This document shows positions 113 to 16,447 of a stretch of DNA of 64,000 bases, one piece after another. The notes under the pieces were generated by a model. That model did no database searches, was not told the origin of the DNA, and was given only the letters and a program-made list of their open reading frames with translations. The position numbers were made by a program, and so were the translations under genes. The first letter of the stretch is position 1; each line of letters starts with the position of its first letter. The stretch lies in NCBI RefSeq assembly GCF_003952425.1, contig NZ_CP034449.1, forward strand, positions 992,001 to 1,056,000. The letters are read 5' to 3'. Origin of the DNA: Mesorhizobium sp. M2A.F.Ca.ET.046.03.2.1 (lineage in GTDB: Bacteria; Pseudomonadota; Alphaproteobacteria; Rhizobiales; Rhizobiaceae).

Positions 113-1822
113 CTATGCCCCGGCAAGCTCATCAGAGGCTTCCTCGACACCGCGTGCAGCAGCCCGTTCGAGCCAAATGCGAGCAGCAGCCGGGTCTTGA
201 TCGCCGGCAATGCCCCTGGAGAGATAGCGGCCAAGCATGAGTTGGGCATGTCCGTGGCCCCTTTCGGCGGCGGCTGCAAACCACTTCTGCGCCGCTTTGT
301 AGTCGAGCGACACGCCCTGCCCGGTCTCATACAATGCGCCGATCGCGAACATCGCCCCGGCATGGCCTGCGGCGGCGGCTTGCTTGAAGAGATGTGCCGC
401 GGCTATCAAAGAGCGTTCTCCGCCGCGGCCGTTGTAGAGCATTTCGGCAAGAGCCACCTGCGCATCGACGATGCCTGCCCCGGCCGCCCGCTCAAACCAG
501 AGGCGGGCCTCCCTCTGGTCGGCCGCCATGCCCCGACCATCCTGTAGCATTCGGGCATACATGTATTGCGCCTCGGCCACGCCCTCGGCCGCGCGGGCTA
601 TCCAATGCGCTGCGCGCTCTTGATCCTTGCGCACACCAAGCCCGTTGGCGAAGCAGAGACCGAGATTGAACGCAGCGACCAGGTCGCCCGATGACGCACT
701 TGCCCCGAACCATCCAGCTACGCTGATTTCATCATCTGGTTCGCCCCCACCGTCAAGAACCAGGTTTGCGAGATCAACCTGGGATTCACGATTGCCGCTG
801 GCGGCGGCGGCACGCAGCAAGCGTGCACCTTCCTCGGCGTCCTTAGCCACGCCATTGCCCGACAGATAGAGCGATGCCAAGGCCCGGGCGGCCGGTTGGT
901 GGCCCGCATCCGCGGCCCGCCGGTACCACGTCGCGGCCTCGGCATAGTCCCGCTGGGGGTTGCCGGCATAGAGTTCGCCGACGCGATAAGCGGCATCGAC
1001 ATTTCCCGTCAGCGCGGCGCGGCGCATCCAGGCTTCCCCAGCGACGGCATCCTGATCCACCAGGCTACCCTCGATCAGGGCTAGCGCGAGCCGGAATTGA
1101 GCGGATGCGTGCCCATTCTCTGCGGCCTCTCGATAGAGTCTCTGAGCCGCTTCCAGATCGACGGGCACGCCCACTCCGTGCTCGCTGAGGATGGCAAGCA
1201 GATAGAGCGCAGTCGGCAGGCCGGCATCCGCGGCGCGCCGGACCTCGGCGGCAATCCTGGCTCGCTGCTCCGGTTGCCGCAGCCGGGCCAAGGAAAGGGC
1301 AAAGCCGAGGCATCCTTCAGGACAGCCGGCCGCCGCGGACTTCTCGTACCAGCCATGCGCTGCATCGAGATCGCGCATCGCCTTGGGCCCTTTGCTCAGG
1401 ATGTAGCCAATTAGTGCCTGCCCTGTTGCAGAGCCCGCCTCAGAGGCCTTCCGCGCGAGTTCGAGCGCTGCCGTGAAGTCCGACTCTCGCGAGGAATCCC
1501 GTTCGAACAAGCCTTCGGAACCTGATTCCTTGCCTGCAAGCCCTGCTATGCACAGCGCGGCAAGCAGCGCCTGCGCATCGGGACTGCCGCGATTGGCCGC
1601 TCGCCGCAGCCAACGCGCCCCTTCCGAGTGGCTCGGCGGGACGCCGGTGCCCTCCAAGTAGCAACGGCCGACCCGATATTGTGCCTCCACAATGCCGGCG
1701 CCTGCCGCGATAGCCATCAGCGCAAATGCCTCCGCAAGCCTGCCGCTGTCGGAAAGCTGGATCGCCCGGCGAAGCGCCAGCGCGGGACGGAAGCGTCCAG
1801 TCAGGCGGTCGAGGATAGCCAT
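113..1822 (-). CDS. Sel1-repeat (SLR) protein
   Basis: This 569-residue protein is built almost entirely of Sel1-like helical repeats from about residue 25 to the end. The repeats are recognisable by alternating A..WY..AA..G, A...LG..Y..G.GV and D...A patterns, and I count more than a dozen. Sel1 repeats are alpha-alpha solenoids that hold protein partners. I see no signal peptide or membrane segment, so a cytoplasmic adaptor or regulatory role is likely. I prefer the ATG at 1822 over an upstream in-frame ATG because it sits one base after the stop of the HlyD gene, which implies translational coupling. It is the last gene of the minus-strand secretion cluster, so it may assist export or modification of the collagen-like cargo. 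That role is inferred from position only. Confidence 0.85.
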   Translation of the reverse strand: MAILDRLTGRFRPALALRRAIQLSDSGRLAEAFALMAIAAGAGIVEAQYRVGRCYLEGTGVPPSHSEGARWLRRAANRGSPDAQALLAALCIAGLAGKESGSEGLFERDSSRESDFTAALELARKASEAGSATGQALIGYILSKGPKAMRDLDAAHGWYEKSAAAGCPEGCLGFALSLARLRQPEQRARIAAEVRRAADAGLPTALYLLAILSEHGVGVPVDLEAAQRLYREAAENGHASAQFRLALALIEGSLVDQDAVAGEAWMRRAALTGNVDAAYRVGELYAGNPQRDYAEAATWYRRAADAGHQPAARALASLYLSGNGVAKDAEEGARLLRAAAASGNRESQVDLANLVLDGGGEPDDEISVAGWFGASASSGDLVAAFNLGLCFANGLGVRKDQERAAHWIARAAEGVAEAQYMYARMLQDGRGMAADQREARLWFERAAGAGIVDAQVALAEMLYNGRGGERSLIAAAHLFKQAAAAGHAGAMFAIGALYETGQGVSLDYKAAQKWFAAAAERGHGHAQLMLGRYLSRGIAGDQDPAAARIWLERAAARGVEEASDELAGA

Positions 1823-1823
1823 C

Positions 1824-3230
1824 CTAGGGCTCCCGCATCGCTTCCTGTCCAATCGGCAGCATGGCGCCAAGCATGTATTTCAGCACGGTACGCCGGCCGA
1901 CCTTGACATCGGCGGTGACAGGCATGCCGGGGCTGATCGCGAAACCAGCTGGCAGGCTGTGGAGGGCGACATCGTCGATCGAGATCTGCGTGCGATAGAA
2001 TTGATCGGTATCCGCCGGAAGCATGGCCAGCGAGCTGTTTGGATCGCGTGCCTGCTCCCTGGCCGAGAATGAATCCGGGCTGACTGTGCGAACAGTGCCG
2101 TGAGCCACGCCATATTGCGAATAGGGGAAGGTATCGAATTTGATGGCCACGGGATCGCCGACATGGACGAAGCCGCTGCTGCGTCCGACGATGTTGGTCT
2201 CGACCTCAAGCACCGCATCGGCGGGAACCAGCGTGATCAAGCGCTCGCCGGACTGCAGGACCGCGCCGACGGAAACCTTGGCCACCGATTGAACCGTGGC
2301 GTCGGCCTCGCTTTTCAACTCCACCAACTGCTTGCGCAGCTTCGCCTTGTTGAAAAGCTCGCGGGCATCCGACATGCGCGAGTGGGCTTCCGACAGGCTC
2401 TGCGAGACGTCGGCACGCCAGCTTTGAATGTAGCCGTTGCGCTCTGCATCGACCGCTGCCTGCTGGCGCTTGGCGGCCTCGGTCGTCTGCACGGCGTTGG
2501 CGAGCGATCGTGACATCTCCGCCGAATTGTCCTCGGCGAGAAGCGTGTTGAGACGGCTCCCAACCTGTCTTTCTTCGAGTTGCTGGCGCATCTTTTCGAT
2601 CGACGCTGCGACGGCGAGCCGCTGCCGATAGCCGTCTGCATCGGACTGGGAGCGCGAGATGACGGAGCTCAACTCGTCACGCTGCCGGTCGAAGCTTTCC
2701 AGCTTGGCATCGTAGACCGCCTTGCGCCGATCGAAGATCGAGGCCTGCAATGTCCAGCTTGGGTCTAGTCCATCATAGCTGAACGGCTTGCCGTCGGCTT
2801 CCGCCCTCAGGCGCGCCACTTCGGCTTCGAGCGTGGCGACCTGGGTGGCCAGCGCGGTAAGGTCCGCCGAGGCGAAGGTGGCATCGAGGCGCGCCAGCAA
2901 CTGGCCCGCCTTCACACGCTGCCCCTCGCGCACCTCGATCGAGCGGACGATCGCAGTCTCCAAGGGCTGGACGACGATGTTGGGCGATTGCGAGACTACC
3001 AGCCCCCGTGTTGTGACAACCTGGTCGACAGGGATCAGCGCTGCGAGCGCGATCAAGGCGACGACCATGCTGGAGATGATCCAGACGATGCTGCGTGCGA
3101 CCCGTGGAATGGGCGCGTTGACGACCGCCGTCGATGGCCACTGGAATTCGAGGATGGCAGGCGCCGTCGGATCGCCGGCCTCTCGCCGGCGCCGGCGGAC
3201 AGGAAGGGTTGAATAGGTTGTGCTGCTCAT
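1824..3230 (-). CDS. HlyD-family type I secretion periplasmic adaptor
   Basis: The 468-residue protein has a short cytoplasmic arginine-rich N-terminus, one membrane segment at about residues 45-67, a lipoyl-like half-motif near 85-115, a long coiled-coil hairpin (about 150-290) and a C-terminal beta-barrel region with the VGDPV.IKFDTFPY signature typical of HlyD/LapC/PrtE adaptors. The family bridges the inner-membrane ABC exporter and a TolC-type outer-membrane channel. Length is normal for the family. It lies 12 bases downstream of the exporter ATPase gene and one base upstream of the Sel1 gene, all on the minus strand. No outer-membrane channel gene is present here, so a TolC homologue elsewhere in the genome would be needed. 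Confidence 0.93.
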   Translation of the reverse strand: MSSTTYSTLPVRRRRREAGDPTAPAILEFQWPSTAVVNAPIPRVARSIVWIISSMVVALIALAALIPVDQVVTTRGLVVSQSPNIVVQPLETAIVRSIEVREGQRVKAGQLLARLDATFASADLTALATQVATLEAEVARLRAEADGKPFSYDGLDPSWTLQASIFDRRKAVYDAKLESFDRQRDELSSVISRSQSDADGYRQRLAVAASIEKMRQQLEERQVGSRLNTLLAEDNSAEMSRSLANAVQTTEAAKRQQAAVDAERNGYIQSWRADVSQSLSEAHSRMSDARELFNKAKLRKQLVELKSEADATVQSVAKVSVGAVLQSGERLITLVPADAVLEVETNIVGRSSGFVHVGDPVAIKFDTFPYSQYGVAHGTVRTVSPDSFSAREQARDPNSSLAMLPADTDQFYRTQISIDDVALHSLPAGFAISPGMPVTADVKVGRRTVLKYMLGAMLPIGQEAMREP

Positions 3231-3242
3231 GGCCGGCCCAAT

Positions 3243-5543
3243 CTAAGCAAGCCTGGGCGGAACGGCCGCCAAGCGGCCGTGCCGACCGTCAAGATGTCGG
3301 TTTTGCTGCAGCCAAAGCTGGCGGTAGAGTGCGCATCGTTCGAGCAGTGTCGCGTGCGGCGCGACGTCGAGCACCTTGCCCTGGTCCATGACCAGGATCT
3401 GGTCGCATTCGGTCAGCGAGGCGAGCCGATGGGAAACGATGATCATCGTGCGCCCGCTGGCGATTCGCATGAGATTAGAGCTGACCACGGCCTCGCTCTC
3501 CGGATCGAGCGCGCTCGTCGCCTCGTCGAGGATCAGGATGGTCGGATCATGGATCAGCGCGCGGGCGATTGCCAGCCGCTGCTTCTGGCCGCCGGAGAGG
3601 TTGGGGGAGCCTTCCTCGATATAGGTGTCGTAGCCGTTCGGCATGCGTTCGATGAACTCGGCGGCGCCCGCCAGTTGAGCGGCACGCATGGCGTCGGACA
3701 GCGTCAGGCCGGGACGGCCGGCAATGATGTTGTCCCGGATCGAGCCGCGGAACAGAAAATTGTCCTGGAGGACGACGCCCAGTCCCTGGCGAAGGTGACG
3801 AAGATTGATTTCCTTGAGGTCGACCCCATCGAGCTTGAGGAAGCCGCTGTAGTCGCGATTGATCCCCTGCAACAGCCGGGCAATCGTCGATTTGCCCGAA
3901 CCGCTGCGGCCGACAATGCCGAACATCGTGCCGGCCGGAACGTCGAAGTTGACACGGTCGAGCGCCGGTGTCTTGGTGCCGATATAGCTGAAGGTCAGAT
4001 CGTTGAATTTGATCTCGCCGACCAGCTTTGGCCGCAAACCGGCGGAATTGGAACTGCTTTCCAAGGGGCGGTTGAGGACCGAAGCGGTTTCGCCGATTGC
4101 CGCGCCCACCTCCTCATAGTCCTCGACCAGCCGCGCCAGGCCGACCAGCGGCTGGGCGACGCGCTGTGCGATCATCATGAAGGCGAACAGGCTGCCGACC
4201 ATATAGCCCGACCCATCGCTCATCGCGAGATAGGCGCCGATCAGCATAGTGCCGAGGACCATGACACGTTCGATCGGCGTGACCAGGGTCTGCGGCCAGT
4301 TCGCCAGTTGCCCGAAGGCGAGACGCGCCTTGCCTGCGTCGGCCACGCGTTCGTCCCATAGCGCCTTGCGCTGCGGCTCGAGACCGAGCGCCTTGACGGT
4401 CTTGATGCCGACGACGGTTTCGCCGAGCGCGGCTGCCTTCCAGGTCTCGGCGTCGACCACGCTCTGGTAGCGTCGGCGCAATGGCGCAAGGAAGGCGAAG
4501 ATGATCGCCATGATCACGACCGCGCAGGCGAGCACCATCCACGCGAGCGTCGCGTTGATGTAGAATATCACCGGGATCAGGACGCAGAGCGTGATCAGGT
4601 CCAGGAACGTGCTGAGCAGCTTTCCGGTCAGGAACTCGCGGATGCGATAGATCTGCGCGAGGTGGTACATCGTCTCACCCGCCGGGTGACGCTCGAAATA
4701 GTCGAGCGGCAGACGCAGCAGCCTGCCGAAGACATGCAGATTGAGCTTGGTGTCCAGGCGGGCGCCGACGACGTTGATGATCAATCGTCGCGCATGGCCG
4801 AGCAGCGTCTCGTAGGCGAAGACGACGGCGATGACCGCGGAGAGGAGGACTAGGGTCGAGACACTGCTGAACTGCAGCACCTTGTTGACCACCGTCATGA
4901 CGATGAGGGGCGGCAGAATGGTGAGGATGCTCAGCGTGAACGAGGCGATGCCGATGTCGCGCAGCGGCCGGCTCTCGAGTCGCACCAGATCGACCAGCCA
5001 GGCGAAGGTGAATGGCGCGTCCGCCGCAATGTAGGAGCGCGCCGCCCGCAACAGGATCGCCTCGCCCGACCATACCTGCAGCAGGCGGAGCTCGTCGATC
5101 GGCACGGCGTCCGCGTCATCGGGCGCATCGACGCTTCTGAGCAGAACGACATTTTGCTCGGCGCTCGCTCCGATGAGGAGACCGGCTCCGCCATCATTGA
5201 ACAGCAGGACGATCGGACCAGTGTGCTCGAAGCGCAAGAGATGTGACCAGCGTATGCGGAGCGCGCGCGACCACATTCCGGCGTTCTGCGCCCATTGCGA
5301 GAGATCGGAGGCGTTTGGAACCGAGGCCGCGCTTGTCGCCCTGAATTCGTTCGGGTCAAGCTCGACGCCGTGATAGCGGGCGACCTGCAGCATTGCCTTG
5401 AGGCGCGGCCCGATGCCGTCAAACGCGGGGGGCCCGCCGGGGATCCGCTTCGCCGCGCTCTCAATCCCGCCGTCCCTGTCCGCTTTCACGTCCGCACGGA
5501 TCGGGACCGGCTGGGCTTCGGTGTTTCGAGGCACGCTTACCAT
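3243..5543 (-). CDS. Type I secretion ABC exporter (permease/ATPase fusion)
   Basis: The 766-residue protein has a C39-peptidase-like N-terminal domain (about 30-160) without an evident catalytic cysteine, six membrane segments (about 180-470) and a nucleotide-binding domain with Walker A GRSGSGKST near residue 545, signature LSGGQKQR and Walker B ILILDEATSALD. A degenerate C39-like domain is typical of RTX and LapB-type exporters, which do not cleave their substrates. I chose the ATG at 5543 because a strong AGGGGGAG ribosome site precedes it; an in-frame ATG at 5618 lacks one. The gene follows the collagen-like protein and precedes hlyD, so the collagen-like protein is the obvious cargo. 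The substrate assignment is inferred from position. Confidence 0.93.
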   Translation of the reverse strand: MVSVPRNTEAQPVPIRADVKADRDGGIESAAKRIPGGPPAFDGIGPRLKAMLQVARYHGVELDPNEFRATSAASVPNASDLSQWAQNAGMWSRALRIRWSHLLRFEHTGPIVLLFNDGGAGLLIGASAEQNVVLLRSVDAPDDADAVPIDELRLLQVWSGEAILLRAARSYIAADAPFTFAWLVDLVRLESRPLRDIGIASFTLSILTILPPLIVMTVVNKVLQFSSVSTLVLLSAVIAVVFAYETLLGHARRLIINVVGARLDTKLNLHVFGRLLRLPLDYFERHPAGETMYHLAQIYRIREFLTGKLLSTFLDLITLCVLIPVIFYINATLAWMVLACAVVIMAIIFAFLAPLRRRYQSVVDAETWKAAALGETVVGIKTVKALGLEPQRKALWDERVADAGKARLAFGQLANWPQTLVTPIERVMVLGTMLIGAYLAMSDGSGYMVGSLFAFMMIAQRVAQPLVGLARLVEDYEEVGAAIGETASVLNRPLESSSNSAGLRPKLVGEIKFNDLTFSYIGTKTPALDRVNFDVPAGTMFGIVGRSGSGKSTIARLLQGINRDYSGFLKLDGVDLKEINLRHLRQGLGVVLQDNFLFRGSIRDNIIAGRPGLTLSDAMRAAQLAGAAEFIERMPNGYDTYIEEGSPNLSGGQKQRLAIARALIHDPTILILDEATSALDPESEAVVSSNLMRIASGRTMIIVSHRLASLTECDQILVMDQGKVLDVAPHATLLERCALYRQLWLQQNRHLDGRHGRLAAVPPRLA

Positions 5544-5680
5544 GCACTCCCCCTGCGACCCACAAGCGAGGGTTCGTGGACGCTCCCGGCACACCGCCTC
5601 GGCCAGAGCTTCCGGCAAGTTCCATCATAGCCTGAACAGTCTTGGAGGACGAGCCCTTGGCCCCTGTCCCGGACGTGCGT

Positions 5681-5712
5681 ATGCGGGCCCTGCGTTTCCG
5701 CGGGACCCGCAT
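5681..5712. other. Strong hairpin between cargo and exporter genes
   Basis: ATGCGGG, one mismatch and CCTGCG fold onto CGCGGG, one mismatch and CCCGCAT around a TTTC loop, giving a stem of 7 plus 6 pairs. It lies in the 190-base gap between the stop of the collagen-like gene and the exporter start. There is no T-run on the minus-strand downstream side, so it does not look like a full intrinsic terminator. A partial terminator or 3' stabiliser that lets cargo be made in excess of exporter is plausible. Confidence 0.5.
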
Positions 5713-5732
5713 GCATTGTTTTCGAACAACAC

Positions 5733-9332
<3,600 letters not shown>

Positions 9333-9396
9333 TCAATTCAAGGGGAAACCGCCCACCGGTTTGGCAGGCGAGAGGGAACAATGAGATTGGACGCGA

Positions 9397-9711
9397 TCAC
9401 CTCGCTGACGGCCCGACGGCACCGCCGGGCCGCGGAACGACAGGTGTTTCCACGCGCAGGAAGCTGGCGACCTGGAAATTGCCGCCGTCGTCAAACGTGC
9501 CGATCGCCAACGAGCCGGCGGTGCTCGGAACCTTGACGTTAAGGGAGACAGCGAGGCTTCGCTTGACCGTCTTGGGGAGGTTGACCTGACCGACGATGGC
9601 GCTCTTGGTCGTGTCGAGCACGAAATATGTCACGTTCCCGGTATCGTCGCCGATGGGCAAGACACCCCGAACAGCGACATCCATGACGGCAAAGCCTGCT
9701 GTATAGCTCAT
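9397..9711 (-). CDS. Small beta-rich protein of unknown function
   Basis: This encodes 104 residues, mostly predicted beta strands rich in V, T and G, with a proline-rich tail and no signal peptide or membrane segment. I do not recognise the family. I prefer ATG at 9711 over the adjacent GTG at 9714 because GGAGGA then sits at ideal spacing. It lies 88 bases upstream of the collagen-like gene on the same strand and is probably the first gene of that transcription unit. A chaperone, cap or co-secreted partner of the cargo is possible, but nothing in the sequence proves it. Confidence 0.65.
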   Translation of the reverse strand: MSYTAGFAVMDVAVRGVLPIGDDTGNVTYFVLDTTKSAIVGQVNLPKTVKRSLAVSLNVKVPSTAGSLAIGTFDDGGNFQVASFLRVETPVVPRPGGAVGPSAR

Positions 9712-10563
9712 CACGTCCTCCTCGATCCGTTGCGGCTCGCGCCGCCGTTCTTTCGTTTCGTAGCTTTGGGTTTCAGTCAGTAGCCGAGCACCCGCGGCGA
9801 GTCCCTGCTGACCACGGTGGCGGGAACAAAAGGTCGTCCAAGTTCATGAAAGCGCTCCCGTGCCGGGATGCCCTGAGGGCAAGTGGCTAGCGGTGGCGGA
9901 GCGACCGACGCGGGCAGCTTGGTTCGAATGAGCCTGGGGCATGTCGAAGCGGGAACTCGCGTCGACGCGACGCCGCTTGGCGGGCGATACTAACCGGACC
10001 ACTGTCAACTCCATCACGCGTGCCGCGATTTCTCGACGACGAAATGCAAGGAGCCGACCACTCGCAACGGAATATCACTCGGGAGATCGAGGCCTGGACC
10101 ACAGATTTCAGGCCAATCGGCGGAACGTTCGCTCGACACCACAAGCACCGCGCCCTCACGGGTGAAGTGGCTTTGCTCCCGGATCCTTTCCTAGCTTTGC
10201 GGACACGCGCGGACAGGCGGTCCTCCCGCCCAATCCGAGGCTACTCTCAGTTGCATTAGATATTAGTAAATGCGAAATTTATAAAATTGTAAATGGCTTG
10301 GTTTACACTTTATGAACGGAAGTTCGCTTGGTAGAGTCTCGCCTGGCGTCTTCGAAATGACAGCTCGGGGACCCGAACCCTTTGAAAATCCGAGGCTTAA
10401 ATCCGGCCATTTCGCTCGCTAAAAATTGAGCACCATCATACAAATGGTTGAGGCTTCACGGGCGCGGGATGGGGCATGAGGGTTGGATGAGTCCTCATCT
10501 GAAAGGATTGCTGTCCTGGATGGTACAGCAGTGCAACTATAGTTGCGTCGGCGGGGGATCGGC
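9712..10563. other. Divergent intergenic region with AT-rich block
   Basis: These 850 bases separate the minus-strand secretion cluster from the plus-strand glycosyltransferase gene. I found no convincing gene. Bases 10255-10330 are strikingly AT-rich for this genome, with a TTTACACTTTATG stretch that could be part of a promoter. Promoters for both directions must lie here, but I cannot place exact -35/-10 boxes. Confidence 0.55.
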
Positions 10564-13356
10564 GTGAGCACCATCGGTCTGTGCATGATCGTCAAGAACG
10601 AGGCGAAGGTTATCCTGCAATGCCTCGCCAGCGCCCTGCCTCTTGTCGATTATGTGCTCATCGTGGACACGGGTTCTACCGATGGCACGCAAGACCTCAT
10701 CCGAGGCTTTCTCGCGCAGAACAATGTCCAGGGAGCCGTCATCGACGAGCCATGGCGGGACTTTGCATACAATCGCAGCTTCGCTCTCGAGCGGCTGCGC
10801 GAAGTCCAGACCGTCGACTATGCAATGATCATCGATGCCGACGATACGCTGATCCTGGATCGTGACTTCGAGCCAGCCGTGTTCAAGTCGCGGATGGAAC
10901 ACGATCTCTACGATGTCGAAGTATCCCATGGAAATATCTCGTTCTATCGCCCGCAGATCTGCCGCAACCGCCTACCCTTTTCCTTCAAGGGCGTGCTGCA
11001 CGAATATCTGGAGGCTCCGCCTGGCCCCATCACACGGCAGAACGCCGAGGGATTTCGCATTGCCACGGGACGTGGGGGAGCGCGCAGCCAAAACCCACGA
11101 AAATACCAGGACGACGCGGCGGTGCTGGAGAACGTGCTCGCAACCGAGACCGATCCGTTCCTGATATCGCGCTACACCTTCTATCTCGCGCAAAGCTATC
11201 GCGATTTCGGTGAACGCGAGAAGGCGCTGGAACAGTATCTGAAGCGAGCAGAGCTGGGTTTCTGGAACGAGGAGGTCTATGTGAGCCTGCTCGAGGCGGG
11301 GAATCTGATGGCCGCGCTCGGCAAGCCCTTCGAAGAGGTCGTCGCGGTCTATGAGCGTGCGACCCAGACAGTGCCGGCACGCGCAGAGGCGCTGCACGCG
11401 GCAAGCCTCTATTGCCGCAGCCAGGGCCGGAACGCGCAAGGACAGGAATTCGCGCGTCGCGGCCTGGACCTCACGGAGCCGACCGGTCTCTTCGTCCAGC
11501 CCTGGGTCTATGACTACGGGCTGCTCGACGAGTTTTCGATCAACGCGTATTGGGCGGGCGCATATCGCGAGTCGCTCGACGCGTGCCTGAAGCTGCTTGC
11601 CTCCGACAAATTGCCGCCGGACATGCTAAAGCGGGTGGTGGCCAATGCGCGTTTCGCGACCGAGAAGCTCGAGGTCCGCGAGCCATCGGTATTGGGAAGA
11701 CTTGGCGCGGAAAGCCTGGTCGAGCAGCACGCGCTGATTGCGCAGCGATCGTTGCGTTCGCGGCTGGAGGTCGTGCCGCGTGTCCTGGTCGCGATACTGG
11801 CCAAACAGAAAGAGCCAGCGCTGCCGCTTTACCTGGCGTGCATCGAGTCGCTCGACTACCCGAGAGAATCGATCGTCCTCTACATCCGCACCAACAACAA
11901 CACCGACAAGACCGAGCAGATCCTGCGCGAGTGGCTGGAGCGCGTCGGCCACCTTTATGCGGCGGTCGAGCTCGACACTTCGGACGTCAATGACCGGGTC
12001 GAGCAGTTTCGCGAGCACGAATGGAACGAGACACGCTTCAAGGTGCTTGGCCGAATCCGCAACATCAGCCTGCGGAAAACTCTCGAGCACAATTGCGACT
12101 TCTATTTCGTCGTCGACGTCGACAATTTCGTGCGGCCGGCGACGCTGCGGGAGCTTGTTGCGCTGGACCTGCCGATCGTCGCGCCCCTGCTGCGCTCCAT
12201 CTCGCCAGGCCAATATTATTCGAACTATCACGCCGAGGTCGATGCGAACGGATATTATCAACACTGCGACCAATATGGCTGGGTGCTCAACCGCCATGTA
12301 CGCGGCGTTATCGAGATGCCGCTCGTGCACTGCACCTATCTTGTACGTGCCGATGTGCTGACCGAACTTACCTATGACGACGGCACATCGCGCTACGAAT
12401 ATGTCGTATTCGCCGACAGTGCCAGGAGGGCCGGCATCGTCCAGTACATCGATAACCGGCAGGTCTACGGCTACATTACTTTCGGCGATCACGAATACCA
12501 TGTCAGCGGCGGGATCGAACGGGCAAGAGAGCTTTTGCGCGACGCGGGCGACGTGCCGCAATTGCTTGGCGCAACGGCCTCGGCGCCTGCTCCGTTGTTG
12601 GCGAGGCCCGAGTTGCCGGACTCGCTGAAGATCCATCTGATCAACCTTGACCGCAGCGTCGATCGCTGGAACCGGTATCAAAGTCACAATTGGCATCTGA
12701 TGCACAATACGGCTCGCATATCGGCCGTTGACGGCACCTCCCTGGACAGGGCCGCGCTCATGGAGGAAGGCCTTATCACCGGTGATTGTCGGTACCCCCC
12801 GGGGACGCTGGGATGCGCTTTGTCGCACATCGATCTGTGGAAGCGTGCGGTATCGGAGAACAGGACGATAACGGTCTTTGAGGACGACGTCCGAGCATCG
12901 TTTCGATTTATCGAGGAATCCGCAGAGATCATGTCCCGGGCGCCGACCGGTTGGGACATGATACAGTGGGGCTATATCATCGATCCGTCTTTTCTCTGGT
13001 TGGACTTTGGTCTTTCGAAAGCCAAGCTGGAGTTCTACGATCGTCGCTACACCAACAGAACAGCGCTGTTTCAGTCCGACAAATTCCCCAGATCGCTCAT
13101 CCGGATAGAGCATTCGTTTGGGCTGCAAGCCTACACGATCACGCCAAGAGGCGCGCGCATTCTCCTGGAAAAGTGCCTGCCGCTGCGACACCGCCTCATC
13201 CCATTTCCTGGGACGGACGTAATCATCGAGGATACTGGCATCGACTGCGCGATGTGCGCCGCATATGGGTCGATGCAGGGCTACATCTGCATGCCGCCGC
13301 TGGTGATCGTGGACGACGAGCAACTTTCCGATCGAGTAGCGACGGACAAGAAGTGA
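10564..13356 (+). CDS. Multidomain glycosyltransferase: GT2, TPR, procollagen-galactosyltransferase-like and GT25 modules
   Basis: The 930-residue protein has four parts. Residues 2-110 are a GT2 domain (CMIVKNEA, DTGSTDGT, DADD). Residues about 170-330 are TPR-like helices. Residues about 405-645 closely follow the first module of animal COLGALT/GLT25D enzymes: VLVAILAKQKEPALPLYL, an ESLDYPR motif, REWLERV, a DVDNF metal site near 517, MVH-type PLVHCTYL, and a tyrosine/glycine-rich end. Residues about 685-925 are a GT25 domain (HLINLDRSVDRW, GCALSH, FEDDV). COLGALT enzymes transfer galactose to collagen. I chose GTG at 10564, after GGGGGATC, because the GT2 fold starts there; a TTG at 10543 is the alternative. 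Its location beside a collagen-like gene suggests it glycosylates the repeats. The sugar and the acceptor residue are unknown. Confidence 0.88.
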   Translation: MSTIGLCMIVKNEAKVILQCLASALPLVDYVLIVDTGSTDGTQDLIRGFLAQNNVQGAVIDEPWRDFAYNRSFALERLREVQTVDYAMIIDADDTLILDRDFEPAVFKSRMEHDLYDVEVSHGNISFYRPQICRNRLPFSFKGVLHEYLEAPPGPITRQNAEGFRIATGRGGARSQNPRKYQDDAAVLENVLATETDPFLISRYTFYLAQSYRDFGEREKALEQYLKRAELGFWNEEVYVSLLEAGNLMAALGKPFEEVVAVYERATQTVPARAEALHAASLYCRSQGRNAQGQEFARRGLDLTEPTGLFVQPWVYDYGLLDEFSINAYWAGAYRESLDACLKLLASDKLPPDMLKRVVANARFATEKLEVREPSVLGRLGAESLVEQHALIAQRSLRSRLEVVPRVLVAILAKQKEPALPLYLACIESLDYPRESIVLYIRTNNNTDKTEQILREWLERVGHLYAAVELDTSDVNDRVEQFREHEWNETRFKVLGRIRNISLRKTLEHNCDFYFVVDVDNFVRPATLRELVALDLPIVAPLLRSISPGQYYSNYHAEVDANGYYQHCDQYGWVLNRHVRGVIEMPLVHCTYLVRADVLTELTYDDGTSRYEYVVFADSARRAGIVQYIDNRQVYGYITFGDHEYHVSGGIERARELLRDAGDVPQLLGATASAPAPLLARPELPDSLKIHLINLDRSVDRWNRYQSHNWHLMHNTARISAVDGTSLDRAALMEEGLITGDCRYPPGTLGCALSHIDLWKRAVSENRTITVFEDDVRASFRFIEESAEIMSRAPTGWDMIQWGYIIDPSFLWLDFGLSKAKLEFYDRRYTNRTALFQSDKFPRSLIRIEHSFGLQAYTITPRGARILLEKCLPLRHRLIPFPGTDVIIEDTGIDCAMCAAYGSMQGYICMPPLVIVDDEQLSDRVATDKK

Positions 13357-13391
13357 AACTGCTGCTGATAGCCGGGCGGGCGCCAAGGGGT

Positions 13392-14474
13392 TTATCCCTC
13401 GACAGGTGCTACAAAAAAATTGTTGTCCAACGGAAATGTCTCCCGGACCGCGTAGCCAAAGGCATCACACCAAGAGGAGAGGTCTTGGTGACGCTCCGGC
13501 CATACTTCGATAAGTATGCCGGGACGCCATAGCTCGATCGTTCCTTGAATTCCCTTGAGCACATCGAATTCCGCGCCTTCCACGTCGATCTTAATGAAGC
13601 CTACAGGTTTCTGACGCAGGAAAAGGTCACCAGGCAAGCACTTGATCACTCCGTGATCGGCCTCAAGCATTTGCGCTTGGCCCATGTTATTTGAAATGGG
13701 ATAAAATACGTTCGCAATTTTCGGTTCCGAACTCAGAGCCACGCCGAGGTAGTCAATATTTACATTCGAGCAAGCATTCAACGAAAGATTTATTTTAAGT
13801 ATATCTATAGCATTTGGATTTGGCTCAAATATTATTATCTCAGATGGGCTGCAAAATTTCGATACAAATATGGAATGATTTCCTATATTTGCACCAATGT
13901 CCACAAACGCCCTTCCGGGCGGCGCAAGGCGTTTGATCAATTCAAGTTCGTCTCGCTCGTAGAAGTCGCCCCTTATAAGGGATGATTGTATGTAATCCAC
14001 TCTATTCGTGATGAAAAAGCTGATGATTTTTCCATCAATCCGATGGCTTGTTATAGTTCCACTTGATTCTTTAGCATCCTCGCGAAGGTGAAACAATTCC
14101 CAAGTCTCACACGCGGGTCTTGATAGCGTAATTCGGCCATCGGGCTCCGCACACAGAAATTTACCGCCCTTCTCAAGTCCAAATTCCCGCCCTCGAAAAA
14201 TTTTTGGTGTCAGAGTGCCCGGGAGTATGTTAAGCACATCGGGACTATCAAACTTCTTTGAGCCAACAATGGCCGAATAATCGCGAAGATATACTATTTC
14301 CTTGTCGATGCCGGCTTCAGTGAACTTCAGGCGAGCCAGCGCACCCTGTTGAACTAACAGGGTATTTTGTGGACTGTGTTCAAACGTTCCGTGCCGGACC
14401 TCTCCGGATGACGGATCGACGAACACGATCGTTCCGTGCGATGTAAAGAGTTGGCCAGCCAGATTGCCGATCAC
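13392..14474 (-). CDS. FkbM-family methyltransferase with N-terminal beta-trefoil-like region
   Basis: Residues about 185-350 are an FkbM-type SAM methyltransferase with the binding motif VDIGANIGNH (191-200), FEPNP and IKIDVEGAEF. FkbM enzymes commonly O-methylate sugars or polyketides. Residues 1-180 contain elements such as GKFLCAEPDGRI and WELFHL that resemble fascin or beta-trefoil repeats, perhaps a glycan-binding module; that is tentative. A 120-base sample at 13741-13860 is only about one third GC, so the gene was probably acquired from elsewhere. It converges with the large glycosyltransferase gene 35 bases away. A role in capping the glycan added by that enzyme is plausible. Confidence 0.82.
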   Translation of the reverse strand: MIGNLAGQLFTSHGTIVFVDPSSGEVRHGTFEHSPQNTLLVQQGALARLKFTEAGIDKEIVYLRDYSAIVGSKKFDSPDVLNILPGTLTPKIFRGREFGLEKGGKFLCAEPDGRITLSRPACETWELFHLREDAKESSGTITSHRIDGKIISFFITNRVDYIQSSLIRGDFYERDELELIKRLAPPGRAFVDIGANIGNHSIFVSKFCSPSEIIIFEPNPNAIDILKINLSLNACSNVNIDYLGVALSSEPKIANVFYPISNNMGQAQMLEADHGVIKCLPGDLFLRQKPVGFIKIDVEGAEFDVLKGIQGTIELWRPGILIEVWPERHQDLSSWCDAFGYAVRETFPLDNNFFVAPVEG

Positions 14475-14603
14475 GACCGTGACCCCCGCTCGATCCCGCG
14501 TAAGTGTAAGCGCATTTGCTATTTCTTGGCAAAGGCGACAACGATACGGAGATTATGCGCCAGCATCGGGCAGTATGGATCGGTCTGTACAGATAGGAAG
14601 GCC
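14475..14603. promoter_or_regulatory. Divergent promoter region, FkbM gene and small glycosyltransferase
   Basis: These 129 bases separate two divergent starts and must hold a promoter for each. I cannot assign individual boxes. Confidence 0.4.
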
Positions 14604-15335
14604 ATGCGAATAGTCGCCTCAATGACCACCATCCCATCGCGGATTGACCGAATTGGCCCGGCGCTTGAAAGCGTGCTCGGCCAGACGGTTGCGGTGGAAC
14701 ATATTGAATTGAACGTTCCACACGTGTGCGTGCGGACGAACGAACCCTACACTTTGCCGACATGGCTGACGGAAATGGAACGGGTGAAGATTTTCCGTAC
14801 AGAGGACTACGGGCCGATCACAAAGATCGCCCCGACCCTACTGCGCCATGGGGATGAGAAAGAAACCTACATCTGGTCGGTTGACGACGACTTTGCCTAT
14901 CCAAAAAATCAGCTTGCCCTCCTCTGCAAAGGGCACCGCGAAACTGAATATCGCATCCTGGCGCGGCACGGCGGGGACTTCAATCCAGACGGCAGCATCA
15001 CGTTCAAATACGGAGAAATGCGGGTATCGATGTTCGAAGGATTCGGCACGGTTCTGTATCCTCCCGCATGCGTGGGTGACGACTTCCTGGAATATGTACG
15101 AGAAACATCGAACGACATGGATTGTCGACATAGTGACGATATAGTCCTTTCGCTCTATTTTGCCTCTCGCAGAATTCCTATTTTCATATGGAATTCGCCT
15201 TCCGAGACAGAGCCATTCTACCCGACGGGTTCGCTTCCCTATTCCTCCGAGGGGGATGCGATCCATTTGCAAAGCGGGGGCAATCTGGAGCGCTATAAGA
15301 GGGTACTCAGCGTCTTGAGGCCTAAAAGGGACTAA
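14604..15335 (+). CDS. Putative small glycosyltransferase
   Basis: The 243-residue protein has features of a GT-A nucleotide-sugar transferase fold: an N-terminal RIVASMTTIPSRI strand-loop, a helix of the GPALESVLGQT type, and a DDD metal-binding site at residues 94-96 in WSVDDDF. Later there is CVGDDF and an SDDIVLSLYFA segment typical of the acceptor side. I prefer ATG at 14604, preceded by AGGAAG; an upstream in-frame ATG would overlap the FkbM gene. No membrane segment is evident. The donor and acceptor are unknown, but the setting suggests glycan extension on the collagen-like protein or a related surface glycan. Confidence 0.7.
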   Translation: MRIVASMTTIPSRIDRIGPALESVLGQTVAVEHIELNVPHVCVRTNEPYTLPTWLTEMERVKIFRTEDYGPITKIAPTLLRHGDEKETYIWSVDDDFAYPKNQLALLCKGHRETEYRILARHGGDFNPDGSITFKYGEMRVSMFEGFGTVLYPPACVGDDFLEYVRETSNDMDCRHSDDIVLSLYFASRRIPIFIWNSPSETEPFYPTGSLPYSSEGDAIHLQSGGNLERYKRVLSVLRPKRD

Positions 15336-15517
15336 GCGACCAGGATCGCGCCCCTGCGCATGAGCTCTTGTTTTTGCCTGATTGACGAGCCCAACTGATA
15401 ATCGAACGCTCGACAGAATTCGACCTTGCGCCGGCTCTCCGGCCTTTATTGCGGTCCGGCAGCTGCGCTAGAGGCGGACCGATCCGACATTGCTTCACAC
15501 GCATCGAGGAACGAAAG

Positions 15518-16447
15518 TTGAGGCGAAGGCATTTCCTAACACTGCTTGCAGGCTCCCCTGCCTGGGGTCTGGCGCTGGCAGGGTCCGCTGTGTCAGTCGT
15601 TCGTGAAACAAGGTCCGCCGTGGTGTCTGCTCAATCAGCCCCAGTTGCGCCCTCGACGTCTCTTCTCACTGCCCCGATAGAACTCGCCGGCGATTGGGGC
15701 CGCATGCTTGAAGGCGCTGCCATTCTGGTCATCGAACGCATGCGGCAGGCCTGCCTCGACGGTGTGCGCCTTCTCTCCGATCGCCAGCCGACGCGATTGC
15801 GTGTCGAGGAGCACACATCCGGTCCGCCCGCCATCTGGCTGCATCCGGACGCCAGCGGCATGGCATGGACCATAGTCGACATCGGCGAGCGGGATTGGTC
15901 GAAGCTCGCCTACCAGTTCGGGCACGAACTCGGGCATGTTTTTGCCAACAGCTGGCAGGCCGATGCCAAGCCTGCGCCGCCATGCCAATGGCTGGAGGAA
16001 GCAATGGTGGAGGCCTTCTCGCTGCGGGGCCTGTGGCGTCTGGCGAAGAGCTGGAAACACACCCCGCCCTTCCCCGGCGACAACGCGTTCGGCGATCTCA
16101 TTGCCAAATATCGCGAAAACATCATCAACGGCTATCAGTCGCTTGCCGACTTTCAAGGCCTCGCCGGCGACCCGCCGGCATGGTTTGCCAAGCACCGAAG
16201 CGAGATCGAAGTTCCGAGCCTCAATCCGTTCGCGCAAGCAATGTCATTGACCATACTCTCGGAATATGAGCAGGCCCCGGACTGTGTTGAGGCACTTGGC
16301 GCGCTCAACCGCTGGCCGGGCCGCAGCCGGATTCCTATCGGTGAATATCTCCAGAAATGGAAAGAAAGCTGTGCCGAGATACACGCGTCAACTCGGCTGC
16401 CGATCCACCTGGGCAAGCTTTTGGGAATTCCGCCCGGCGTCGAGTGA
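15518..16447 (+). CDS. Tat-exported protein with HExxH metallopeptidase-type motif
   Basis: With a TTG start at 15518, after GAGGAACG, the 309-residue product begins RRRHFLTLLAG and has a hydrophobic stretch to about residue 28, which fits a twin-arginine signal peptide. HELGH at 136-140 is a zinc-peptidase motif, and WLEEAMVEAF about 20 residues later could provide the third ligand. I cannot place it in a named family. It follows the glycosyltransferase on the same strand after a gap of 180 bases, so it may be independent. A cell-envelope protease that trims a surface protein is possible. An in-frame ATG at 15449 would add 23 residues and hide the signal peptide. Confidence 0.65.
   Translation: MRRRHFLTLLAGSPAWGLALAGSAVSVVRETRSAVVSAQSAPVAPSTSLLTAPIELAGDWGRMLEGAAILVIERMRQACLDGVRLLSDRQPTRLRVEEHTSGPPAIWLHPDASGMAWTIVDIGERDWSKLAYQFGHELGHVFANSWQADAKPAPPCQWLEEAMVEAFSLRGLWRLAKSWKHTPPFPGDNAFGDLIAKYRENIINGYQSLADFQGLAGDPPAWFAKHRSEIEVPSLNPFAQAMSLTILSEYEQAPDCVEALGALNRWPGRSRIPIGEYLQKWKESCAEIHASTRLPIHLGKLLGIPPGVE

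Follow-up and report, generated by a model that had tools for sequence, protein, structure and literature searches.

Does a Mesorhizobium genome encode a system that glycosylates a collagen-like protein and exports it? We considered this question for a locus in a 64,000-nucleotide stretch (the window) of Mesorhizobium sp. M2A.F.Ca.ET.046.03.2.1, whose genome is a single contig of 7.37 Mb. A preliminary description had proposed such a system at positions 113 to 15335. We consider it likely that the locus encodes a collagen-like protein (the cargo), a predicted type I exporter of its own, and a glycosyltransferase (the enzyme) that is predicted to glycosylate the repeat threonines before export. 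The gene content and order, the domain homology, the co-inheritance of enzyme modules with the exporter, and the threonine saturation of linked collagens within the genus are established, and the core idea, a cargo that would be glycosylated and exported by type I secretion, has strong comparative support.

The cargo, the exporter, and the enzyme

We scanned the genes of the locus against Pfam and NCBIfam, and those named in the preliminary description were found where it had placed them. The central genes are as follows.

5733 to 9308, minus strand: the cargo, 1191 amino acids, with DUF4347 and Collagen matches (Pfam and NCBIfam scan)
3243 to 5618, minus strand: HlyB-like type I ATP-binding cassette (ABC) exporter (best NCBIfam model TIGR01846, HlyB, E = 2.4e-155, below the curated cut-off)
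1824 to 3230, minus strand: HlyD-type periplasmic adaptor of type I secretion (TIGR01843, 440.6 bits, above the cut-off)
113 to 1870, minus strand: Sel1-repeat protein, an accessory of the export operon (Pfam Sel1, E = 6.5e-73)
10543 to 13356, plus strand: the enzyme, with GT2, tetratricopeptide repeat (TPR), COLGALT-like domain 1, and GT25/COLGALT-like domain 2 (Pfam, phmmer, and a structural model)

The ABC exporter, the HlyD adaptor, and the Sel1 protein are encoded downstream of the cargo, and a small conserved protein, p105, is encoded upstream on the same strand. The exporter and adaptor are thus linked to the cargo, as in type I secretion. The Pfam scan gave no Peptidase_C39 match in the exporter, so we rejected cleavage of the cargo by such a peptidase.

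The cargo begins with DUF4347 (residues 7 to 168), followed by a beta-rich stretch (about 170 to 290), the collagen tract (297 to 1049), and a C-terminal tail. The tract has 251 Gly-X-Y triplets (Pfam Collagen, 338.3 bits), including 168 GAT, 62 GST, and 11 GDT; Y is threonine in 246 of the 251. Proline occurs just twice at X and once at Y, and lysine is absent from all 251 triplets. No RTX family is among the cargo's Pfam or NCBIfam matches. DUF4347 is predicted to be a caspase/CHAT-like domain with a candidate His/Cys dyad: His61 and Cys104 are invariant in 45 of 45 aligned rows, and a Foldseek search with the domain's model matched Tce1, the remaining matches being weak or mixed.

Co-inheritance with the exporter

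We searched 150 related genomes, including the genome itself, with the enzyme (E of 1e-10) and the exporter (E of 1e-200 or less). Each matched 35 genomes, and these were the same 35; neither matched in the other 115. The link between enzyme and exporter therefore goes beyond adjacency. The preliminary description had called for a search for co-occurrence across genomes, which we find both here and at loci in other phyla (see below). It had also named, as grounds for giving up the idea, enzyme homologs that are never near collagen genes, and this is not what we see.

The enzyme and the exporter share a contig, about 3 to 18 kb apart, in 20 of the 35 genomes; they are on different contigs in the other 15, which is what assembly breaks within repeats would produce. 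A strict collagen tract was found in 33 of 36 fetched loci. L043 fails the strict rule, yet Gly-X-Thr repeats are visible in its sequence. L056 is truncated by the contig end, L070 is a lone GT25, and L077, a locus from the domain 1 scan below, stops at p105.

The matches to the enzyme were of unequal kinds: GT2-TPR matched in 35 of 35 genomes, domain 1 in 10, and GT25, at the locus, in 16. Other strains carry other proteins in the same slot. Some are GT2-TPR proteins with GT1-type domains (L044, L045, and L047 were scanned). Others are open reading frames (ORFs) of about 1250 to 1310 amino acids with a weaker GT2-TPR match; the one scanned, L048, has Gly_transf_sug with DXD. Still others match the FkbM query and then GT25, and the only one scanned, L049, has GT25 and a GT1 domain and no FkbM family. 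By these comparisons, it is the GT2-TPR module that stays constant, and the COLGALT-like part is one interchangeable extension.

Threonine and proline in linked collagens

Among the 33 linked loci, the fraction of triplets with threonine at Y is at least 0.91 in 31 (it is 0.79 in L066 and 0.66 in L045). In 30 of the loci, proline in X does not exceed 0.03. The partial tract of L042 carries lysine at X. As controls, we used collagen-match loci of genomes without the exporter (16 loci, drawn from 14 of the 37 such genomes that have a Pfam collagen match), as well as loci with free-standing domain 1 genes. Judging by repeat content, four control loci (L098, L104, L105, and L113) are perhaps not true collagens. 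Of the 16 loci, 15 have threonine at Y in 0 to 0.31 of triplets, the other being an ORF of 89 amino acids with 0.70; in 14, proline reaches at least 0.17 at X or at Y. GT2, domain 1, and GT25 had no match in any of the 16 stretches. The published average for threonine at Y is 31.6% across all bacteria and 48.3% among Gram-positives (passages and Table 1 of PMC8968730). Outside Mesorhizobium, the linked tracts have a median of 0.78 (over 13 values, of which two come from a single genome and one, L079, is weak) vs. 0.10. Threonine saturation without proline is a trait of Mesorhizobium and near kin.

Does such a repeat need a sugar in order to fold? The repeats might fold without it, and the glycan might instead serve adhesion, protease resistance, or masking, which is compatible with the glycosylation and export steps that we propose. 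Passages of PMC8277102 report that the (Gly-Ala-Ser)n collagen of Bucl8 forms a triple helix, so folding may need no sugar; glycans of BclA are discussed as hydration aids (passages of PMC8968730); and some linked collagens outside the genus do contain proline. However, the low proline and high threonine of the linked loci set them apart from unlinked collagens, and galactosyl-threonine is credited with the thermal stability of Riftia collagen (passages of PMC10141479). We regard sugar-independent folding as a serious contender, at somewhat less than an even chance.

The enzyme and its chemistry

GT2 extends to about residue 180, followed by the TPR part (about 180 to 395, seen in the structural model), domain 1 (405 to 680, Pfam Anp1), and domain 2 (690 to 937, GT25). 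The true start is probably at 10564, since the window's own protein is recorded as 930 amino acids. The closest named homologs are from Mesorhizobium, at up to 86% identity. The resemblance of the C-terminal half to animal procollagen galactosyltransferase, which had been noticed from the sequence, is borne out: among PDB sequences, phmmer matched procollagen galactosyltransferase 1 to residues 411 to 809 (E = 1.4e-41), human COLGALT1 is the best structural match of the two-domain half, and residues 409 to 934 are homologous to both COLGALT1 domains, in the same order. The VDVDN and FEDD motifs align with the first DXD (D166/D168) and the EDD metal site (E435-D437) of COLGALT1. The corresponding residues D525/D527/N528 (D-x-D-N) and E780-D782 (EDD) are invariant in 42 of 42 rows. 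The N-terminal half resembles the peptide and protein glycosyltransferases SunS and GmaR.

The preliminary description spoke of matching chemistry. Glycosylation as the core idea stands, but the animal reaction, galactosylation of hydroxylysine, is ruled out for a tract without lysine, and for this reason we do not class the enzyme as a collagen hydroxylysine galactosyltransferase. The acceptor would be threonine, given that the tract has no lysine. The Pfam and NCBIfam scans recognized no lysyl hydroxylase among the genes of the locus.

Glycosyltransferases of family GT25 and FkbM-family methyltransferases, one of which is encoded beside the enzyme, are common in polysaccharide loci. Could the enzyme and its neighbors be a locus for surface polysaccharide (lipopolysaccharide, exopolysaccharide, or capsule) that lies next to a collagen export operon by chance? 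Such gene content would be typical, GT25 occurs without collagen at L070, and the enzyme's model also matches chondroitin and heparosan synthases, further down the structural match list. Chance adjacency does not fit the co-inheritance of enzyme and exporter (an identical set of 35 among the 150 genomes), the likeness of the N-terminal half to SunS and GmaR, or the threonine saturation that accompanies the glycosyltransferase within the genus. It also does not fit the GT2 relatives that adjoin collagen-like genes in Beta- and Gammaproteobacteria, in an actinobacterial metagenome-assembled genome (MAG), and in Bacillota. We consider a polysaccharide locus improbable.

Loci outside Mesorhizobium

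At E of 1e-20, GT2-TPR matched in 1 of 385 genomes of the class and domain 1 in 1 of 398 genomes of the phylum. Both hits are the window's own genome, and the system is therefore rare and patchy. A scan of genome contigs with domain 1 found 27 loci: 7 from Mesorhizobium (6 with a collagen tract and L077) and 20 others, including Rhodoblastus, Methylobacterium, Acidisoma, Methylobacter, a beta-proteobacterium, an actinobacterium, TM6, Bacillales, and Chlamydiae. Outside Mesorhizobium, 10 of the 13 proteins with both GT2 and domain 1 have a collagen tract nearby (9 without L079, whose tract is weak). The three misses (L080, L089, and L092) sit on contigs of 6.3 to 8.8 kb, and L092 has ABC, HlyD, and Sel1 genes directly upstream. 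Comparing these proteins with free-standing domain 1 genes, Fisher's exact test gave P = 0.017, or 0.057 if L079 is counted as a miss. Since most free-standing copies have no collagen nearby, domain 1 by itself does not mark a collagen locus. Viral loci L115 to L149 carry free-standing COLGALT-like domain 1, with Gly-X-Thr ORFs near L140 to L142 and L144. Two Chlamydiae MAGs (L096 and L097) have two tandem COLGALT-like domain 1 genes and no collagen tract in the stretch.

The enzyme also matched 38 plasmid records. We opened 13, of which 12 are not from Mesorhizobium: Methylobacterium, three Cupriavidus, Citrobacter, Acinetobacter, Peribacillus, Paenibacillus, three Priestia, and Bacillus velezensis. 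A collagen-like ORF was present in 10 of these 12 stretches; in 9, it lies no more than 0.45 kb from the GT2 gene that was matched. Five of the 12 (L150 to L154) also gave a match to the TPR query. The remaining record, from Mesorhizobium ciceri (L162, NZ_CP015063.1), has the enzyme, p105, and a DUF4347-collagen gene on a plasmid of 648 kb, where cbb3 oxidase genes lie about 8 kb away. In the Priestia plasmids (L158 to L160), the GT2 gene is followed by a second glycosyltransferase that gave a weak match resembling domain 1, and Gly-X-Thr proteins are encoded alongside. The two stretches lacking a collagen-like ORF have other neighbors. On a conjugative Citrobacter plasmid (L152), the GT2 gene is directly downstream of an autotransporter, and the match list has entries of equal score for Enterobacter and E. 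coli plasmids; in Acinetobacter (L155), the GT2 gene is directly downstream of a YadA protein. These neighborhoods suggest a wider O-glycosylation of adhesins.

A COLGALT-like enzyme had been proposed as the partner of the collagen. Such an enzyme is indeed linked to collagen genes, but the constant partner is GT2-TPR, and we rejected the COLGALT-like domain as the defining partner: it is present in 10 of 35 systems and is mostly without collagen when alone. A weaker form of our reading, which keeps the core, is that GT2-TPR glycosylates the cargo while the COLGALT-like half has a different target, or lacks catalytic activity and only binds collagen. Domain 1 is missing from 25 of 35 otherwise complete-looking systems, its free-standing genes are mostly distant from collagen, and the catalytic domain of human COLGALT1 is the C-terminal one, the related AC domain of LH3 being inactive (passages of PMC13382579). 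A dead or misdirected half is harder to reconcile with the invariant EDD and D-x-D-N motifs and with the collagen tracts near proteins that carry both GT2 and domain 1. We think this division of labor possible but doubtful.

Comparison with known systems

The closest known case is in C. difficile, where SgtA puts O-GlcNAc (N-acetylglucosamine) on threonines of the collagen-like BclA3 (passages of PMC7157674). There too, the glycosyltransferase gene adjoins the collagen-like gene, the enzyme is a GT-A domain with TPR, and the sugar is O-linked to threonine of the collagen repeat; by contrast, BclA3 is a spore protein with Gly-Pro-Thr repeats, and SgtA has 358 amino acids and is described in those passages as glycosyltransferase and TPR alone. 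The window's enzyme likewise combines GT-A and TPR, and its gene adjoins one for a Gly-X-Thr collagen; its likeness to SgtA is by described architecture and gene neighborhood, and the passages on SgtA mention no type I export. The claim that no such system had been described thus holds in part: among open-licence papers, we recognized no system in which a collagen secreted by the type I route is paired with a COLGALT-like enzyme, but glycosylation of Gly-X-Thr collagen by a neighboring glycosyltransferase was known from C. difficile. This kind of locus is already known, and the new features are type I export and the COLGALT-like half.

Human COLGALT1 (GLT25D1) and LH3 share the two adjoining domains, their order, and the DxD and EDD motifs, but the animal enzyme uses hydroxylysine and lacks the GT2-TPR half. 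BclA of Bacillus anthracis and B. cereus is also a bacterial collagen-like protein reported to be glycosylated (passages of PMC8968730), but it is a protein of the spore exosporium. Riftia, the vent worm, resembles the proposed case in its galactosylated threonine (passages of PMC10141479), but its collagen is an animal one. Type I systems for RTX proteins and giant adhesins have a HlyB/HlyD-like exporter with a large linked cargo; here, the cargo is collagen-like and has no RTX family match, and a glycosyltransferase lies alongside.

Accessory genes

The other features of the locus are as follows.

9397 to 9714, minus strand: p105, between the cargo and the enzyme, recurring in relatives
9715 to 10563: intergenic region separating the divergent transcription units, with an AT-rich block at about 10250 to 10320
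13392 to 14474, minus strand: FkbM-family methyltransferase, possibly for O-methylation of the glycan (TIGR01444, 101.7 bits)
14436 to 15335, plus strand: 299-amino-acid ORF, a possible glycosyltransferase module, from its recurrence in related loci
15449 to 16447, plus strand: p332, a predicted envelope zinc metalloprotease-like protein (RR-type, Tat-like N terminus by eye; HExGH motif)

The Sel1 gene adjoins the HlyD and ABC genes in seven other loci as well (L035, L041, L042, L043, L068, L083, and L092). p105 is present in 30 of the 150 relatives and is fused to DUF4347, as a joined ORF, in L045, L047, L062, L072, and L076. The AT-rich block is conserved between the window and L035 and is possibly a shared promoter region.

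FkbM-query matches recur in related loci. The 299-amino-acid ORF had been called a second glycosyltransferase: the gene is present and recurs in such loci, but no Pfam or NCBIfam family matched, and its role rests on that recurrence. It is joined to GT2-TPR-domain 1 in the beta-proteobacterium L090 and is present in L037, L040, L041, L081, and L083. Its true start is probably downstream of 14436, because the first 39 bases of the ORF coincide with the start of FkbM. The G+C content is 0.472 for FkbM and 0.534 for the ORF vs. 0.626 over 16700 to 64000, which fits cassette exchange.

Of the 35 relatives with the exporter, 34 have p332; a 49-residue fragment of it was also matched in G033. HExGH is found in 43 of 43 matching ORFs, and no Pfam or NCBIfam family matched. 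From this distribution, we assign p332 to the predicted system. The genes of the interval first described are real, but the N-terminal GT2-TPR half, p105, and p332 had been missed, and the system reaches 16447. The genome has a second, degraded p332-like gene (L114, 11908-12636), near another type I secretion operon with a C39 ABC protein, HlyD, a GH16 protein, and a GlcNAc 2-epimerase.

Proposed mechanism

By analogy with SgtA, the GT2-TPR half would attach a first sugar to the Y-position threonines in the cytoplasm, and GlcNAc is our best guess. The TPR part would hold the repetitive acceptor. The COLGALT-like pair would extend this sugar or add a second one, with catalysis in the EDD-bearing GT25 domain and with domain 1, which bears the DxD, as a scaffold or second site; FkbM and the 299-amino-acid ORF might decorate the glycan. 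The unfolded glycopolypeptide would then exit via the HlyB/HlyD-like exporter together with a TolC-like channel encoded elsewhere. Outside the cell, glycosyl-threonine would stabilize a nearly proline-free triple helix, giving a surface or matrix fiber, which DUF4347 and p332 may process or anchor. With a modular glycan-building part, each lineage could write its own sugar on the same fiber.

Several observations weigh against this reading. First, the glycan, the secretion, and the triple helix are predictions, and the Bucl8 helix suggests that folding may do without sugar. Second, of the 35 system genomes, only 10 have domain 1; 33 of the 35 belong to one genus and hence are not independent. 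Third, free-standing domain 1 genes are near collagen in just 1 of 7 genome loci, and 4 of 35 viral contigs with such genes have a collagen-like ORF, two of these being apparently identical in sequence. GT2-TPR also adjoins non-collagen adhesins (L152 and L155) and so is not collagen specific. Fourth, beyond the genus, threonine at Y is 0.39 to 0.69 in seven linked tracts (0.39 to 0.67 in the genome-scan loci L084, L085, L088, L090, and L094; 0.49 in plasmid locus L150; also L151), and proline in X is 0.24 to 0.38 in L084, L151, L156, and L161, with 0.38 in L084 and 0.24 to 0.36 in the three plasmid loci. Fifth, the second DXD of GLT25D1, D461-x-D463, is essential (passages of PMC3244457), and in the window's enzyme this motif starts with glycine (GWD); it is DWD in at least 32 of the 42 rows. 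Finally, no TolC gene was seen at the locus (the OEP family has 9 matches elsewhere in the genome, in several genes), and our search of open-licence papers found no apparent example of a type I-secreted glycoprotein.

A fuller version of the mechanism, which we hold only tentatively and think less likely than not to be right in all its parts, is that the sugar takes the place of animal hydroxyproline. One chain would combine an SgtA-like initiator with a COLGALT-like extender, about 246 threonines would be glycosylated per cargo chain, and type I export would yield a sugar-stabilized, nearly proline-free helix. The extenders would be swappable, and the COLGALT two-domain architecture would be a general tool for collagen glycans.

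Implications

If the proposed reading is correct, this would be a Gram-negative system in which a collagen is linked to an exporter and has glycosylation enzymes of its own, and a test case for glycosyl-threonine replacing proline or hydroxyproline in the triple helix. It would also mean that the COLGALT two-domain architecture works in bacteria on another amino acid, and that a densely glycosylated chain can be secreted in one step by a type I system. For rhizobia, in which our search of open-licence papers found no description of such a structure, the locus points to a strain-variable surface fiber.
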